A DNA stretch of 64,000 nt, from the NCBI RefSeq assembly GCF_030682845.1, contig NZ_JAUXNK010000075.1:68234-132233 (forward strand). Direction: 5' to 3'. The notes under the pieces are model-generated. The model was not told the DNA's origin, made no database searches, and was given only the letters and a program-made list of their open reading frames with translations. Positions 3,763 through 33,649 of the stretch are shown in pieces. Numbering within the stretch: position 1 is the stretch's first letter; each line of letters begins with the position of its first letter. Source of the stretch: Methanolobus sp. Lineage in GTDB: Archaea; Halobacteriota; Methanosarcinia; Methanosarcinales; Methanosarcinaceae. The position numbers and the translations under genes were made by a program.

Positions 3763-4935
<1,173 letters not shown>

Positions 4936-5950: not shown

Positions 5951-6028
5951 CCCCCATTCCTCTTTTCGCGTGCCCTGATACCATAAAGCCTTTAATCTCA
6001 GAAGTATTATTAAGGATATATCATGCAC

Positions 6029-6388: not shown

Positions 6389-7174
6389 CTAGAGTTCAGT
6401 AATTGGAATGGAATCCTTTAAATAAAAGTCAAAAAGATATTTTCCCCATTTAAGAGCGGCGAGATTGCTGCACATAATGTATTGCCCATCAATCTCCCCC
6501 TCGTTTGTTAGCAACCGCATGAGAGTATAGTAGTCATTGACCAGAAATGCCAAAAAGTCTAACTTTTTATGGTGAACAAAAATATTAAATGACTTGCCCT
6601 TCGTCATTTCCTCTAAAAAAGTATAGTGATTCTCTTGTAAAGTGTCAATCACATCTTTGGAGAAGATGGCATTTACATTTACATTTTTACGAGCCATTTC
6701 AGAAAAAACAGTGGGATAACTCGGGTGAAATGACGCAGCAATCATATTTACAGAATTAGAAATATAAGAGGAATTAGTTATTTTGGCGTTAAGGTCATAC
6801 ATTTCACTCACAAGAGGCTTTATGATTTCACAACCCCCAAGCTCATTCATTCTTTTTAAAAGGTGAGGCGGGATAAAATTAAGGTTATGAGTTCCCCAGT
6901 AATCAACATCACTATCCAAAACTTCGAGAGTATTTAAAAGAGGAAACATATCATCAGTTACAAGTTCTCCAATTGTTGTCAATTCATAAGTATCATCGTA
7001 TTTATTAACAAGATAATGTTCTTCAAGTGTCTTTATCTGAGGAAGCAATGCCTGCCTAGTAGTATCAAGGGAATTTAGTAAATATTCCATCTTCTTAGCT
7101 CCATCTTTGAGCAAGAGAAGAACTCCCTTTCTTTTCTCTGACATGAAAATAACATCAAGTAGTGGTTTCTTCAT
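6389..7174 (-). CDS. FilR1-type winged-helix transcriptional regulator (copy A)
   Basis: A 261-residue protein of the methanogen family with an N-terminal winged helix (about residues 1-80, containing SLDTTRQALLPQIKTLEE as recognition helix) and a C-terminal FilR1/DUF1724 domain. FilR1 is known as a regulator linked to filament formation and methane metabolism in Methanothrix; the target here is unknown. The start at 7174 gives Met-Lys-Lys-Pro, matching the start of paralogue B at 23626; a longer frame begins at 7243. The two copies are similar throughout and end in Ser-(Ile/Thr)-Pro-Ile-Thr-Glu-(Leu/Ile) followed by TAG. Codon use is AT-richer than in housekeeping neighbours. Confidence 0.82.
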   Translation of the reverse strand: MKKPLLDVIFMSEKRKGVLLLLKDGAKKMEYLLNSLDTTRQALLPQIKTLEEHYLVNKYDDTYELTTIGELVTDDMFPLLNTLEVLDSDVDYWGTHNLNFIPPHLLKRMNELGGCEIIKPLVSEMYDLNAKITNSSYISNSVNMIAASFHPSYPTVFSEMARKNVNVNAIFSKDVIDTLQENHYTFLEEMTKGKSFNIFVHHKKLDFLAFLVNDYYTLMRLLTNEGEIDGQYIMCSNLAALKWGKYLFDFYLKDSIPITEL

Positions 7175-7370
7175 TGTTCCCCATCCCATGCAGAAGTATA
7201 CTTGTAAGGGGATAATTGACTCATATAGTTGCTGGTCGCTCAATCTTATAGAATCAAGTTGTCGATATTCTATTTAATGTATAATTGTTAAAATTCGAAG
7301 AGTTAAACCTTTAACCCCTCGTATTTATAATTTGCCATTTGCATAAGCTAATTGAAAAAAAGAAAAAAAT

Positions 7371-17488: not shown

Positions 17489-18490
17489 TCACCATTGCGA
17501 TGGAGAATATTCAAACTCAAAATTATCAACTTCATCTGAATCCAAGCCAAGGTCAGAGAACATTTTCCTGAAAACACTTCTGTAATCTTCCTCAGGTATC
17601 TCTTTTTCTGTTGTAAGCCGGACATGAAGATTTACTCCTCCTTTGGGGTCGGCCTGTATGATGTAATCGTTCCCGTTTTGTCGATGGATCACTCTTGAAT
17701 TCTGCAGAATATAATTGATACTTCCTGCTATCCTGTCATCCTCATAGAATAATTGTCTTATTGAGCCGGAACCTGTCGTTTCTGTGAAGCTGAAAGCATC
17801 ACTTCTGCTCTTCATATCCGTATATGTTGAATTAAAGTCCGGTGGATGAGTAACTATGACCGTGGCACTTTCTTCACTCTCGATGTTTTCCTTTAGCCGA
17901 ACCAGATATGTTTGAGCTGCTGCATCACTTATTCCAAACATAGTCCTGAATAGCTCTGTCATCACTTCATCGTCGGGAAGATGCTCGGTTTCAAAATGTC
18001 TGAAGGACGGATCCTGCCAGGTCTCGTTATAGAAAGTGATGATCGTTGTCCCATTTCCAAATTTTGCTTCCATCGATATCCCGTCTGGAAAATAGTAATT
18101 CAAGGAACTGACCCAGAAGCTGTCTCCAAGATATGCTCTGACCTGAGAGACTCCGGGAGACCAGATGCCACTTGCCTCAAATAAGTCTGAATCAATATAC
18201 ATTGGACCTTCGACAATGTAGCCTGCTTGCCGTGCACTTGATATCATCTGGTCGTAATCGGTATTTCCCAGGTTTCGCCCCTCACTAGAGTAAGATGCAT
18301 TGTCAAAGGATATCAGCGCAAAAGCAAAGGAAGCATATATCACTCCTGTCAGTCCTACCAGCAGGAACAAGGTGATCTGGCCTTTTCTTTGCAGGGTAAG
18401 GTTCCTTTTGCTCCAGAGCCAGAACATAAGTCCGATGAAAATAGCTCCTGACACAATTACTGACAGGCCGAATGCGGTAGTCTCAAGCAT
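17489..18490 (-). CDS. Membrane protein with large extracellular domain, unknown function
   Basis: A protein of about 333 residues starting at ATG 18490, where GGAG stands seven bases upstream; an in-frame ATG at 18577 gives 29 more residues but has weaker support. Two hydrophobic helices occur near residues 6-25 and 38-62, followed by a long soluble part of mixed alpha/beta composition without cysteines or recognisable motifs. I do not recognise the family. It lies convergent with mscS and divergent from a PEF-CTERM surface protein, so it may be an envelope protein. Confidence 0.65.
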   Translation of the reverse strand: MLETTAFGLSVIVSGAIFIGLMFWLWSKRNLTLQRKGQITLFLLVGLTGVIYASFAFALISFDNASYSSEGRNLGNTDYDQMISSARQAGYIVEGPMYIDSDLFEASGIWSPGVSQVRAYLGDSFWVSSLNYYFPDGISMEAKFGNGTTIITFYNETWQDPSFRHFETEHLPDDEVMTELFRTMFGISDAAAQTYLVRLKENIESEESATVIVTHPPDFNSTYTDMKSRSDAFSFTETTGSGSIRQLFYEDDRIAGSINYILQNSRVIHRQNGNDYIIQADPKGGVNLHVRLTTEKEIPEEDYRSVFRKMFSDLGLDSDEVDNFEFEYSPSQW

Positions 18491-23553: not shown

Positions 23554-23625
23554 ATACAAATAAGCCCTTATACTTTTTTGAGGGGAGTATTTGAAAATAT
23601 AGTTGTATTAAGAGGAGTGTCGCAA

Positions 23626-24408
23626 GTGAAGAAACCATTAATTGACGTGCTGTTAATGTCAGAGAAGAGAAAACAAGCACTTTTACTCTTGCAGGACAGT
23701 GCGAAGGAAATGGAATATCTTCTCAAATCCCTTGGTACTACCAGGCAGGCTCTGCTGCCTCAGATAAGGATACTGGAAGAGCATCACCTTGTTAATCACT
23801 ACGAAGATACCTATGGACTGACAGCCATTGGTAGACTGACAGTTGATGAGATGGCTCCACTGGTGGGTACCCTTGAAATTTTGGATGCAGATATTGATTA
23901 CTGGGGAACTCATGATTTCGATTTTATTCCACCAGCTCTACTGAAAAGAATCAAAGAGTTGAGGAGTTATGAGATTATTAATCCTCCCCTTGCGGACTTG
24001 TATTCTCTGCATAAAACATACCATCACAATAAAATAACAGAATATGTCTATTCAGTTGGTAACATCTTTTATCCTGATTACCAATCAAGATTCACTGAGA
24101 TGATAGATAATAAAATCACTACTAATTATATTGTGTCTGAGAATTTGTTTGATAAAGTAAGAAATGAATATTATGAAGATTTTAAAGTTTTCATTAAAAG
24201 TAAATATTTTAATTTATACGTCTACGATAAAAACATGAACTTTTTATTCTTTACATTTGATGATTACCATATAGTTATAAACATGCTAAAGAAAAATGGG
24301 GATGTTGATAGCAAGTACATCCTGTGTAGTACAAAGGATGCGCTTAAATGGGGAAAAGATCTTTTTGACCATTATCTGAAAGATTCAACACCAATAACTG
24401 AAATTTAG
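23626..24408 (+). CDS. FilR1-type winged-helix transcriptional regulator (copy B)
   Basis: A 260-residue paralogue of the regulator at 6389-7174, with the same N-terminal winged helix (SLGTTRQALLPQIRILEE) and C-terminal FilR1/DUF1724 domain. The GTG at 23626 is chosen because AGGAG lies eight bases before it and the product then begins Val-Lys-Lys-Pro, like copy A. The winged-helix half and the extreme C terminus are best conserved. The middle of the sensor domain (about residues 120-210) differs strongly, so the two copies probably respond to different signals. It ends in TAG. Confidence 0.83.
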   Translation: MKKPLIDVLLMSEKRKQALLLLQDSAKEMEYLLKSLGTTRQALLPQIRILEEHHLVNHYEDTYGLTAIGRLTVDEMAPLVGTLEILDADIDYWGTHDFDFIPPALLKRIKELRSYEIINPPLADLYSLHKTYHHNKITEYVYSVGNIFYPDYQSRFTEMIDNKITTNYIVSENLFDKVRNEYYEDFKVFIKSKYFNLYVYDKNMNFLFFTFDDYHIVINMLKKNGDVDSKYILCSTKDALKWGKDLFDHYLKDSTPITEI

Positions 24409-24522: not shown

Positions 24523-27162
24523 TCAATTACCTATCAGTTCCTTTGCTTTTTCGTACATCCAGAGTGCATCATCTTCTTTACCCATATTCTCAAGTATGTA
24601 GCCAAGGTTGTTCAGGGTGCATGCTGCGCTTTCCCTGTATGACACGTTATCAGGCTCTTCCTCAAGAATCATGGCGTATCTTTTGAGTGCATTCTCGTAC
24701 AGGGGCTTTGCTCTCTCTAGCTCTCCTTCCTCAAGAAGGAAGTACCCCAGGTTGTTAAGTATATACGCTACGTTCTGCTGATACTCAATGTTGTGGCTGT
24801 TCTCTCCGAGAAGTGTCTGGTATTCCATAAAAGATGCTTCAAACAAGCCTCGTGCCTCTTCCACCTGTCCCATATCAGTCAGCAGGGCGCCTAGCTTGCA
24901 TCTCATGGATGCTGTTCTTTCAAGGTAGAAAAGACTCGAAGTATCCACTGCGGCCAGTTCTCCATAGGATGATAATGCACTTTCATAGTACTTCCTTGCC
25001 TCGTCCATGTATCCATTCTCATCGAGTTGCAGTGCCATATTCTCCAGTATGGCAGCACTGTCTTTTCCGATGTATATATTGCCAGGGTCCATCTCAGCAA
25101 GCTTCTCACACAGCCTGAGCAGCATGTCATAGCTTTTGATCCTCTGCTCAAAATCCTCTATCTCAGGAACAGACACCTTCAAGTTCTCCAGCATGCGAGT
25201 GACCTTTAGGCGGTACTGTGAATTCTTACCCTCTCCTGAAATGAGTTTCAAGTAGATGTCCAACCCTTCTGCGACCTGTCCCTCATCGATCATCAGGTTT
25301 GCTATCTCCTCCCTGAGGCTTATTATGTTCTGGAAGTATCGCAGGTTATCAGGCTCTATTGCAAGCAGTTTCTCACGCATTGCAAGTATCTTCCCGTATT
25401 CAGCGATAAGCGCTTGCCTGTTGCTGGCATCAAGGGGATCCCTCTCCATGTTCATGAGGATGCTGTCAACTTTATCCCTATGGCTCTTAACAGAAGGCTC
25501 CATGCCACAGAGTCTGAAATATATCTCAAGGGCCTTGTCTTTTTCTTTGAGGTCTGTCCGGACAATACCGACGGCTTCAAGAGCGGAAACGAGCTTATCC
25601 ATGTATTCTTCATTGCTACCCTCAACGGACATCAGTGACTCATACATTGCGGCAGCCTTTTCAAAATGCTCTGCAGCCTCATTGTGCATCTCCATGCCCA
25701 GCATAAGCTTCCCTGTCTCATCCTGCAGGCCTGCAATATCCTTTTTGATGCCGGCATCATCCTGCATGATCCCGCCAAGCCTTATAAGCCTCTTAAGTAT
25801 TATCTCGCAGGCCCGGATCTTTTCCTGACCTTCATCTATCCCTTCTGCAAAATGTCGCAGATCATCGATAATATACCTGGCGCCGGACTGGAACATCTCA
25901 TCCGATGCTTCTGCTTCAAGAGCTTCCAGTGCAATATCAGATGCCAGGACAAGATCCTGCATAGCCATGCTTTCCTCATGCAGATCCTTTAGGAGCTTTC
26001 CGCGGATATCCAGAGCAAAAGCAACATTCAGCCGATAGGACATGTTGGAAGGATCGATGTCCTGTAGCAGCTCGCATGTTGTGAGTATTAGCTCATGGTC
26101 TCGGAGTTTTTCCCGGGAACTTTCCTCCTGGTCTACAAACTCATTAAGTTCCCTGAGCACAGAGATGATCCCTGAGCGGTATTCCGGGTTCTCAGGTTCA
26201 TTCTCAAGTAACTCCCGGAAGTATTGCAAAGAATTGATGAGCTTCTCTCTCTCACTTTCCGGTTCCTTTGATTCTGCAAAAAGTTCATGATTTATATCCT
26301 CTGACGGGGCTCCTGCAGCGTTAGCTGCGCTGTCATCTTTCCTTTCTGCAGCAAGGCGTTCCTCTATTGCCTGTGCCTCGGCGTACAGGGCTTTGGCATC
26401 AATGGTTTTACCGGCAGACATGAGCACATCTGCATAGCCCTTCAGGGCAAAGGCGAGCCTCTCAACATAAAGTGCTGTTGGGTCCATCTCGATAATTCTG
26501 CGGTAGGTATCCACCAGTTGCCGGTACTTCTCTTCCGAAAGATCCCCTGGCGAGCTGCCTGCCTCAAGATTGAGGAGATTCTCAAGGATAGTTGCCATCT
26601 TGAACTGCAGGGTCGTAGCCCTGCCAGCTTCCTCGGGACTCTCCCGGAGTATGCGTAGAGCTTTTTCAAAGCTTTTCTGTGCAGCTTCCTCTTCTCCCTC
26701 TTCCGCCAGCAGGGCTCCAAGGTTGTTCAGCGTTGAAGCAGCGTTTGACCTGTAAGTCATGTTGTTACTGTCACTCCCCAGAAGTTTATCATAAGCGTGT
26801 ATGGATATATCATAATTTTTCCTTGCCTCTTCTTTGGATCCCTTTTTTTCCAGGATGCCAGCCAGATTACTGAAAATACCTGCCCTCTGTTCGTAATTTA
26901 CATAGCCGTTGACCGAAAGATCATTGCTGACATCAACAGCGAGCCTGTATCTTTCAAAAGCATCATCCTCACGGCCCGTTGAAAGCAAGAGATCGGCGTA
27001 TGTCTGCAATACGCTGGCATGGATCTCGGGAGATTCGGCTTCCTTTACACTGTGTTCTGCCAGCTCCAGGGCATGAAGCGCATCCTCATATAACCCTTTC
27101 TCGATGAAGGACACCCCTTTGTTGAGGTGTCTGACTGCTATATCTCTTGATCGTGTGGACAT
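24523..27162 (-). CDS. Large cytosolic TPR-repeat protein
   Basis: An 879-residue protein built almost wholly of tetratricopeptide repeats, for example GVSFIEKGLYEDALHALELA near residue 17, TLNNLGALLAEEGEEEAAQKSFEKAL near 150, and two strong C-terminal repeats of the form LNNLGYxLxExGxxxxAxxxYExAL. There is no signal peptide or membrane helix. TPR arrays serve as scaffolds for protein complexes; the partner is unknown. The repeats in the middle are diverged. A truncated copy of its 3' end lies about 1.1 kb downstream at 23363. Confidence 0.85.
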   Translation of the reverse strand: MSTRSRDIAVRHLNKGVSFIEKGLYEDALHALELAEHSVKEAESPEIHASVLQTYADLLLSTGREDDAFERYRLAVDVSNDLSVNGYVNYEQRAGIFSNLAGILEKKGSKEEARKNYDISIHAYDKLLGSDSNNMTYRSNAASTLNNLGALLAEEGEEEAAQKSFEKALRILRESPEEAGRATTLQFKMATILENLLNLEAGSSPGDLSEEKYRQLVDTYRRIIEMDPTALYVERLAFALKGYADVLMSAGKTIDAKALYAEAQAIEERLAAERKDDSAANAAGAPSEDINHELFAESKEPESEREKLINSLQYFRELLENEPENPEYRSGIISVLRELNEFVDQEESSREKLRDHELILTTCELLQDIDPSNMSYRLNVAFALDIRGKLLKDLHEESMAMQDLVLASDIALEALEAEASDEMFQSGARYIIDDLRHFAEGIDEGQEKIRACEIILKRLIRLGGIMQDDAGIKKDIAGLQDETGKLMLGMEMHNEAAEHFEKAAAMYESLMSVEGSNEEYMDKLVSALEAVGIVRTDLKEKDKALEIYFRLCGMEPSVKSHRDKVDSILMNMERDPLDASNRQALIAEYGKILAMREKLLAIEPDNLRYFQNIISLREEIANLMIDEGQVAEGLDIYLKLISGEGKNSQYRLKVTRMLENLKVSVPEIEDFEQRIKSYDMLLRLCEKLAEMDPGNIYIGKDSAAILENMALQLDENGYMDEARKYYESALSSYGELAAVDTSSLFYLERTASMRCKLGALLTDMGQVEEARGLFEASFMEYQTLLGENSHNIEYQQNVAYILNNLGYFLLEEGELERAKPLYENALKRYAMILEEEPDNVSYRESAACTLNNLGYILENMGKEDDALWMYEKAKELIGN

Positions 27163-28936: not shown

Positions 28937-28981
28937 CAAATCTATCCTCGAGTAACCACATCACGCTAAAAAATGATTCCC

Positions 28982-31900
28982 ATGAAAACGAAAATATATG
29001 TGCTTTCCTTAACACTGATGTTTATTGCAACATTTCTTTTTAGCCCTCTGGCTGTCAGTGCCAGCACTGACGTAAAGGATTAGAATTCACATGCTGTTGC
29101 TCTCACAAAAGATGGAAATTACGACCAGGCACTCGAATATTATAACAAGGCTCTGGCTCTGGATTCCTCAAATGCCGAAACACTGGATAATAAGGTCTCA
29201 ATTCTGTTCCTGTCGGGGCAGTACCAGGAAGCTTATGACGTAAACAAAATCCTGCTCAACAGATATCCTGGCTCCCCTACAGCACATTTCAAGAAAGGGC
29301 TTATCCTTTCCGCAACGGGGGATTATGAGAATGCTATAAGTGCCTATGACATGTCCCTGAACAGGCTTGAAAAAGGCGGTTCTGACTACGATAATGGTTT
29401 TGACATCGGCAGCATTGTTCTGTCACATGGGGACAATGTATCCCAATTAACGGAGTTTGACCCCCGGGCTGCTACCATATTTTATCATAAGGGTAAAGCA
29501 CTGGAGAAAGCTGGCAGATACGAGGAAGCCCTGGTGTGCTATGAGAATGCCACCGCACTCACATCATCATATGCAGATTCATTGCATAGGAAGGGTCTCA
29601 AATCTTATGGCTCCGGGGAGTACGGCAAGGCTTTACAGCTGTTAGACAGTGTGCTCTTAATCGAACCTTACAATGCCGTAGTATGGTATGAAAAAGGGCT
29701 TGTACTCGATGCAATGGGAAATCATGAGGATGCCATTGGTTGTTATAGCCAGGCGATCGAGCTTGATCCCTCTTATGAGGACGCTCTTTTGAACAGGGCG
29801 AAGGCCTGGGAAAAAACAGGCGCTATCGAAGAAGCAATAGAGGATTATGATCTCCTGCTTATGGTCAATCCCTCCAGTTCCGAAGCATGGTATGGCATGG
29901 GACGTAATTATGAGGATCAGGGAAACTATGAGTATGCATTAAGGGCATATGAACAGATCCTTACATATGAACCCGCCAATAAAGAGGTCTGGTCAAAGAA
30001 AGGCTTTTTGCTGGATTCTCTGGGTATGTATGATGAGGCTATCCTTGCCTATGATATGTCCCTTCAGCTCCAGAGCCAGCGCAGGCTCTCACTTTCAAAT
30101 CCGGTTGATACGCCGGATATTTTTGCTTCAAGCATCGATGTGATGGCTTCCTATGATGAACAACCTGTTTTCACATCCGATACTGCCGGGATATGGTATA
30201 ATAAAGGACTGGCTTATGACAGGCTTGGCAGGCACAAGGAGGCTGTCGATGCCTATGACAGGGTGCTGGGTCAGGAAAAGGGCTTTGCTGTCGTATGGTA
30301 TAAGAAGGCCGTTGCACTGGACAACTTGCAACAGTACGATAAAGCCATTGATTGCTATGCTCAGGCTCTCAAAATAGATGCATCCTATCCCCGGGTATGG
30401 TATGAGATGGGTCAGGATTATGACCGGCTTGGAAAAAGCAGTATGGCGCTAAAATCCTATTCAAGTGCTCTCAGTCTGGACCCGGATTTTGCAGCTGCCT
30501 GGTATGCCGGTGCTGCAGATCTCTCCCGTCTTGGAAAGCACAGCGATGCAATAGGATATTATGACCGAGTTCTCGAACTTGAGCCCGGCTTCGTAGATGC
30601 ATGGTTCAATAAAGGCAATTCCCTGGACAGCCTGGGAAGATCGGCCGAATCTATCGTTTGCTATGAAACGGTGCTTGAGTTGCAGCCCTCGCATCCTGGT
30701 GCAACAGAGAAGATGAATGCCGGACTTCAGAAGCAGAACGGCACTTCCAGCGTTCTCCTGAGATCCATGACCATTGCGAACAACAACAAATTGTCAGGGA
30801 ACACAGCTAACGATATGCTGTTGCCCAATGCCTTTGTTCTTTACAACAGCTTTTCACCTGCACCCGCGTACAGTACAAGGAAAGCTGCTGGTGCCTATGA
30901 AACACTTGGCATGCCTGTAAGCCTTGATCAGCTGTGGGCAGGCAAAGGCGATGCTCTCAATGGCATGAACATGCCCGAAGATGCCATGGCCTGCTATGAT
31001 AAGGCATTGATGTTAAACAGTGATTCAACTGCTGCATGGTCCGGCAAAGGCTTCTCATTCGACCTGTTAGGTATGCATGAGGAAGCACTTGGACTTCATG
31101 AAAAGGCTCTTCTGGCACAGCCTAATGATCCTGAAGCCCTTCTAAGGACAGGGATCTCACATTATAGGAATATGGATGAATGGACAGCACTGGAATATTT
31201 TGAGAGGGTACTGCAACAGGAACCTGGCAACCAGAAAGCTCTATACTATAAGGCGTCTGTTTGCGAAAGCCTTTCACTGTATGCTTACGCCATAGAGTCT
31301 TATGATGCCATGCTGGCAGAAGATCCTCAGAATACCGAAATCTGGTATATGCGGGGATTGGCGCAATATAAGGCTTACATGTATGATGATTCACTGGAAT
31401 CTTTTGATAAGGTTCTGCAGCATGATAATTCAAATGTGACCGTACTTATGTACCAGAGCATGTCCTCGGCGCAGATGGGCAATTACGGCAAAGCTATCGG
31501 CTACAATGAGCGCATACTGGAAATACACCCGGATGACACTGAGGTGCTTTTCATAATGGGAACAACCTACGAGAAAGCCGGCCAGTATTCAATGGCTATT
31601 GAGGTATACGACCGTATACTTGAACTTGAGCCAGAGAATACCAAAGCGTGGAACCAGAAGGGATTTGCCTATTATCTCATGGGCGATCCGGCAACTGCAG
31701 CGGATATGTTTGATAAGTCAATATCCATTAACTCCGAAAATCCCTCTGCCTGGTATCACAGGGGTATGCTGGCTTACATGCTCAGTAGTCCCAAAGGTGC
31801 TATCTATTATTACGATAAGGCATTGGAGCTGGATCCCGACTGTATCACTGCATGGTATAACAGGGGCTTTGTCCAGAATGTCCGGGGAGATACGGAAGGT

Positions 31901-32176
31901 GCAATTGTGAGTTATGACAGAGTGCTGGAATTGGATCCCGCTTCCGTCTCAGCTATGTACAATAAGGAATTTGCCCTGTATCGTCTGGGTAAGTCCTCGG
32001 AAGCCGCCCGTCTACACGAGATGATAGGGCTCATAGATCCTGAATTTGTTACCTCTTTGCAGGACAGGGGCACAGCTTTCTTCCTGCCGACAGCCTATAG
32101 TGACACACTTGACTATGAGCTGCCGGTAAGATGGTACAATGGGACCACCGAGTATATCCGGGTGAGTGAGAAGTAA
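28982..32176 (+). CDS. Secreted TPR protein interrupted by one in-frame amber codon (possible pyrrolysine)
   Basis: From ATG 28982 (or ATG 28973, same frame) the product begins with a clear signal peptide (about residues 1-27, ending FSPLAVSA). Six residues later comes TAG at 29081-29083 (residue 34), and then an uninterrupted TPR protein to TAA 32176, 1064 residues in all. The stretch right after TAG reads ALTKDGNYDQALEYYNKALALD, a full TPR. More than twenty TPRs follow, with a low-repeat insertion near residues 580-640. The first ATG after the amber codon (29351) lies inside a repeat and would give a protein without a signal. Either TAG is read as pyrrolysine, known in this clade, or the gene carries a fresh nonsense mutation. 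Confidence 0.7.
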
Positions 32177-32917: not shown

Positions 32918-33649
32918 ATGGATAATACGACCGATAGTACAGATCCAAGGGAGAGGCTTCTGGAAGACCTGAGAGGTCTTAAACAGGATTTCAGCAAGGA
33001 TCCCACTATGGACAACCTGTTCCAGATAGCCGTTATATATGACGCACTTGGGCAGACCGAACGCGGCATAGGTTTTGCAGAGGCTTTCCTCATGCAGATA
33101 GAAGATGAAATGGAAAGGCTCGTGATGAACACAATGGTCCTGAGCATGGTGGATAGGGATGATGAGGCAGTTAAACTCCTGGGAAAAGCAGAGGAAAAGT
33201 TCCCGGAAGACATCCGGCTGAAAAGATACCGGGGCATGTTGCTTAACAAGCAAAGGAAGTTCGCGGAAGCTGTCGATGCATTTACGACTTTGCTGGAAAA
33301 AGATTCCGGCGACCTTGAGGCGGTATCCGGAAAGATCATAGCTCTCCTTGGGTTAAAAAAGCATGATCAGGCCATGAAAGCATATCAGGCTTCTATCAGT
33401 ATAACTCCACAGGAAGCCCCTCAATGGCATTTCAAGGGCATGCTTGACGGCCTGATGGGTGAGCATCTCTCAAGGATACAGCAGAACGGTCTGAATGAAG
33501 ATCACAATAAGAAACTTTCTGAAAGTTTCATGCGGATCAATAGTCTGATCGACAATTTCGGTCCGGATGTACGTAACTTTTACAGGATGGGACAAGTAGC
33601 AGGGAAGGAGGCTTACCATCTGACAATGGATGATGCAGAGGAAAAATAA
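32918..33649 (+). CDS. Cytosolic TPR protein (243 residues)
   Basis: A protein with about four to five TPR-like helical pairs in its N-terminal two thirds (for example ALGQTERGIGFAEAFL and LLNKQRKFAEAVDAFTTLLEKD). It has an acidic start and an alpha-helical C-terminal part. There is no signal peptide. The gene follows the HAD gene at 16 bases and is probably co-transcribed with it. Function unknown; TPRs suggest a protein-binding role. Confidence 0.75.
   Translation: MDNTTDSTDPRERLLEDLRGLKQDFSKDPTMDNLFQIAVIYDALGQTERGIGFAEAFLMQIEDEMERLVMNTMVLSMVDRDDEAVKLLGKAEEKFPEDIRLKRYRGMLLNKQRKFAEAVDAFTTLLEKDSGDLEAVSGKIIALLGLKKHDQAMKAYQASISITPQEAPQWHFKGMLDGLMGEHLSRIQQNGLNEDHNKKLSESFMRINSLIDNFGPDVRNFYRMGQVAGKEAYHLTMDDAEEK

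Follow-up and report, generated by a model that had tools for sequence, protein, structure and literature searches.

An in-frame amber codon private to one Methanolobus genome in a conserved TPR gene of a pyrrolysine-decoding host

We analysed a 64,000-nucleotide stretch of DNA (the window) from Methanolobus. The host genome (G000) is a 2.87 Mb draft in 110 contigs. Comparisons were made with its nearest relative, a sister species (G044), and with an outgroup (G050). The features of the gene studied here are collected in Table 1. As originally predicted, ATG 28982, the TAG at 29081–29083 and the TAA at 32174–32176 fall in one frame. Read through the TAG, positions 28982–32176 (plus strand) encode 1064 residues with a single TAG, at residue 34. 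Translation also bore out the claim that no further stop or frameshift occurs across the 3.1 kb after the TAG, and a Pfam search recovered the proposed TPR identity of this part (TPR_1, E 1.1e-143, 13 stretches). As modelled with AlphaFold (mean pLDDT 83), residues 1–230 form paired helices. The solved structures nearest to this model, according to Foldseek, are designed consensus TPRs and MamA.

Judged by hydropathy and layout alone, residues 1–33 have the arrangement of a signal peptide: an n-region (MKTK), a hydrophobic core and small terminal residues. A start at ATG 28973, which is conserved in close relatives, would give MIPMKTK..., adding three residues. The TATA-like stretch further upstream differs by one change in the sister species (ttatatttga) and may be the promoter element of the gene. 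Downstream of the TAG, no in-frame ATG, GTG or TTG occurs before ATG 29351, at residue 124, within the TPR region. Hence, a re-initiation product would lack both the putative signal peptide and the initial TPRs. Two more TPR proteins closely flank the gene, at 24523–27162 (minus strand) and 32918–33649 (plus strand) of the window.

Table 1. Features of the amber-containing TPR gene, in window coordinates.
Feature	Position	Strand	Remarks
TATA-box-like AT stretch, ttatatttaa	28880..28889	+	Upstream of the TPR gene; from sequence
Possible alternative in-frame start, ATG ATT CCC	28973..28981	+	Three codons upstream of ATG 28982
N-terminus with putative signal peptide, residues 1–33	28982..29080	+	From sequence and hydropathy
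In-frame TAG, codon 34	29081..29083	+	TTG in the sister species, TTC in the outgroup
TPR body, 1030 codons and TAA	29084..32176	+	Open; constrained in the comparison of host, sister species and outgroup
Gene-caller ORF (table 11), 941 aa from ATG 29351	29351..32176	+	Without putative signal peptide and first TPRs

With the first 193 residues of the TPR protein as query, we searched 112 genomes from the family. The protein turned up across Methanolobus and in at least two other genera. In the sister species, the same ORF is uninterrupted and lies in a collinear region; identity is 94% over 1068 aa and 92% over the N-terminal 193 residues. Hence, the sequences before and after the TAG are halves of one gene and not a chance arrangement. 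Collinearity was verified in the outgroup as well. Uninterrupted homologues in the same genus and family are 28–92% identical to the N-terminal region and have frames of about 1050–1108 aa. Among the 112 genomes, a stop in the matched region occurred only in the host and in no orthologue. Since all the orthologues found carry a sense codon at position 34, conserved recoding was rejected.

The original prediction singled out TAG, or codons for glutamine, lysine or tryptophan, as what relatives might carry at residue 34. None of these was found in the eight closest relatives. Codon 34 reads TTG, TTC, CTC, CTG, TTT, ATC, TTT and TTT, specifying leucine, phenylalanine or isoleucine. Since the codon of the sister species is TTG, a single T>A substitution explains the TAG of the host. 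Our reading, which uses our own consensus assignment, places residue 34 at what would be the first conserved hydrophobic position of helix A in TPR 1. Lysine, glutamine or tryptophan is not usual at such a site.

The case for a pyrrolysine-containing protein depended on the host having pyl genes, and a search of the genome found them. The pylS, pylB, pylC and pylD genes form one cluster on contig C108 (L032:8228–12500), and all four gave NCBIfam equivalog matches above cut-off. A tRNA-Pyl with a CUA anticodon is encoded on contig C63 at 17766–17837 (L051:1501–1572). This tRNA shares 90% identity with a Methanosarcina-type tRNA-Pyl query and was called independently by ARAGORN as tRNA-Pyl(cta). 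The usual order of the genes is pylTSBCD; here, pylT and pylSBCD are on different contigs and pylT does not immediately precede pylS. In-frame TAG codons are present in mtmB, mtbB and two mttB loci of the host, and a PYLIS_1 match lies downstream of the TAG in mtmB, which is near the pyl cluster. On all the genomic criteria applied, UAG is read as pyrrolysine in the host, to the extent that sequence can tell.

The prediction also stated that TAG ends other genes of the window, and it does. Conserved genes of the window that terminate in TAG keep this stop at its position in the sister species, and mostly in the outgroup too. Across the host genome, TAG terminates 54 of the 472 ORFs of at least 350 codons. 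One archaeal code reportedly reads all TAG codons as pyrrolysine. The conserved TAG stops and the 54 of 472 ORFs do not favour such genome-wide reassignment here. On sequence grounds, UAG works in the host as a stop as well as a sense codon, which fits the published view of pyl-bearing archaea (PMC2933860). As a separate observation, two window ORFs, 6389–7243 (minus strand) and 23578–24408 (plus strand), have closely similar C-termini (ALKWGK.LFD.YLKDS.PITE) and both terminate in TAG. Contig C65 carries a related ORF (L115, TAG at 4670), a decayed copy interrupted by several stops.

In Methanosarcina acetivorans, a uidA reporter into which an amber codon had been placed yielded mostly truncated product and 20–30% full-length, pyrrolysine-containing product, and PYLIS was not essential for amber suppression (PMC2933860). 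No PYLIS match was detected downstream of the codon 34 TAG, even at E<=10, and the RNA after it had no unusual structure (fold z-score +0.85). A PYLIS-like element or special fold guiding pyrrolysine at codon 34 was rejected on these results. The complete pyl set, the amber methyltransferases and the reporter readthrough measured in M. acetivorans together make a full-length protein with pyrrolysine at residue 34 plausible.

The explanation that we favour, and which is probably correct, is a recent, lineage-specific nonsense mutation that changed the leucine codon TTG into TAG in the conserved gene of a putatively secreted TPR protein and is partly suppressed by Pyl-tRNA. The T>A change would have converted codon 34 into a UAG at which Pyl-tRNA competes with release factor. 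Most translation would terminate as a signal-peptide stub. The remainder would yield full-length exported protein with pyrrolysine in a TPR helix A, in lowered quantity that may depend on methylamines. Pyrrolysine would be a tolerated stand-in for leucine and not selected for its chemistry. We propose that suppression of the UAG by Pyl-tRNA accounts, in whole or in part, for the tolerance of the mutation.

A newly arisen null allele is a distinctly less probable account. Here, suppression would be too weak to matter, the UAG would terminate translation, at most a cytosolic fragment would be made from ATG 29351, and decay would not yet be visible. That TAG is a working stop at the end of many conserved genes, and that neither PYLIS nor unusual structure follows codon 34, speak for this. 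The 20–30% suppression of an introduced amber in a related genus (PMC2933860) speaks against it, as does the rest of the gene, which is free of frameshifts and stops.

Constraint on the gene bears on the same question. The dN/dS between the host and the sister species is 0.155, similar to the values of the other pairs (0.144–0.195). Changes polarised with the outgroup comprise 33 nonsynonymous and 53 synonymous on the host lineage versus 34 and 50 on the sister lineage (p=0.88). One patch of the sister orthologue (L034), codons 675–760, is dense with changes, holding 41 of the 84 polarised on that lineage (21 nonsynonymous, 20 synonymous). This pattern suggests that TPR sequences have recombined or undergone gene conversion in that species. 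Without the patch, the ratios are 33:51 for the host and 13:30 for the sister species (p=0.34). In the 5' third of the gene, the host lineage has somewhat more nonsynonymous changes, as a null allele might, and the difference is not significant (p=0.18). Under a simple model, neutrality over about 15% or more of the host branch is unlikely.

Constraint no weaker than on the sister lineage counts against a null allele and implies that the mutation arose recently or is tolerated, or both. The gene has neither relaxed constraint nor extra lesions, the signs of a pseudogene, although a very recent pseudogene would look alike. The constraint data would fit either a recent stop or enough protein still being made, and cannot separate the two.

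We surveyed premature stops using a coding-potential scan of 1.64 Mb of the host genome, with 0.47 Mb of the sister genome for comparison. Adjacent genes, misplaced starts, antisense ORFs and decayed genes made up most of the matches. A second private amber lies in a 103-codon, otherwise open gene on contig C5 (L056:5721–6032, minus strand; TAG at 5970–5972). The position is CAG or CAA, encoding glutamine, in four related copies, and the change is CAG>TAG. By eye, the gene resembles a ribbon-helix-helix regulator; it has no Pfam match. We regard this codon as another candidate for neutral pyrrolysine, and it adds to the case for mutation with partial suppression. A premature TGA, which apparently replaces a tryptophan codon, lies near the start of an SNF-family transporter on contig C16 (L067:5579–5581); the 423 residues after it match PF00209. 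Such an opal nonsense codon in another gene is a further point for the null allele. No clear excess of in-frame TAG over TAA or TGA emerged in these 1.64 and 0.47 Mb, a comparison that is underpowered by the few clean cases. Weighing against mutation with partial suppression are the TGA lesion elsewhere, the lack of a clear TAG excess, and constraint that would be the same in a newly dead gene.

An error of assembly or base calling, or a minority strain variant in a species that has TTG, is improbable. Only one base in a 110-contig draft is at issue, which such an error could supply. However, codon 34 is outside any homopolymer run, and nearby changes on the host lineage (R5I, P9S, A31V and T46N) have the spread of ordinary substitutions.

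Selected recoding is the least credible reading. It would make pyrrolysine at residue 34 adaptive, or have the amber serve a surface protein as an adaptive switch dependent on methylamines. The codon directly follows the putative signal peptide, and how it is decoded hinges on pyrrolysine supply. Against this, TAG is absent from all relatives found, the eight closest have leucine, phenylalanine or isoleucine at a structural TPR position, and there is no insertion element. Taken by itself, a switch after the signal peptide is scarcely more credible; production of the export-competent form would require decoding of UAG as pyrrolysine, tying surface display to methylamine-linked pyrrolysine supply. 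The original prediction of a pyrrolysine-containing secreted protein is supported in part, in that the genome shows UAG decoding by the host and a full-length protein is plausible. A specific role is not supported, given a private TAG, the lack of a PYLIS and the normal use of TAG as a terminator. A selected role or purpose for pyrrolysine at codon 34 finds no support in the comparisons made here.

For mutation with partial suppression, there are comparable cases among known systems. The tRNA-His guanylyltransferase Thg1 has protein evidence for pyrrolysine. The in-frame UAG of Thg1 in M. acetivorans is attributed to neutral evolution (Heinemann et al. 2009, PNAS, as cited in PMC3639795 and PMC11467909). 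Like that gene, the TPR gene encodes no methyltransferase and carries a lineage-restricted in-frame amber, in an otherwise constrained sequence of a pyrrolysine-decoding methanogen. Thg1 is a cytosolic enzyme, whereas the TPR protein is predicted to be secreted, is known from sequence alone and has its amber 34 codons from the start. The TPR gene shares an in-frame TAG with the MtmB, MtbB and MttB genes of the same genome. In the methyltransferases, the amber is conserved and catalytic, with a PYLIS in mtmB, whereas that of the TPR gene is private, non-catalytic and without PYLIS. Read-through candidates predicted in Methanosarcina and others include a CobN homologue, transposases and a TetR cluster (PMC1242214, PMC3639795). 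Like these, the TPR gene is a computational pyrrolysine candidate outside the methyltransferases, and is read partly as drift. Neither "TPR" nor "tetratricopeptide" appears in the article text of PMC3639795.

Standard gene callers, starting the TPR gene at ATG 29351, would miss the putative signal peptide. Should the full-length protein be produced, pyrrolysine would once more have arisen by drift outside the methylamine methyltransferases, this time in a repeat protein that is exported. The case would illustrate how an ability to suppress UAG allows nonsense mutations to persist in pyrrolysine-decoding archaea.
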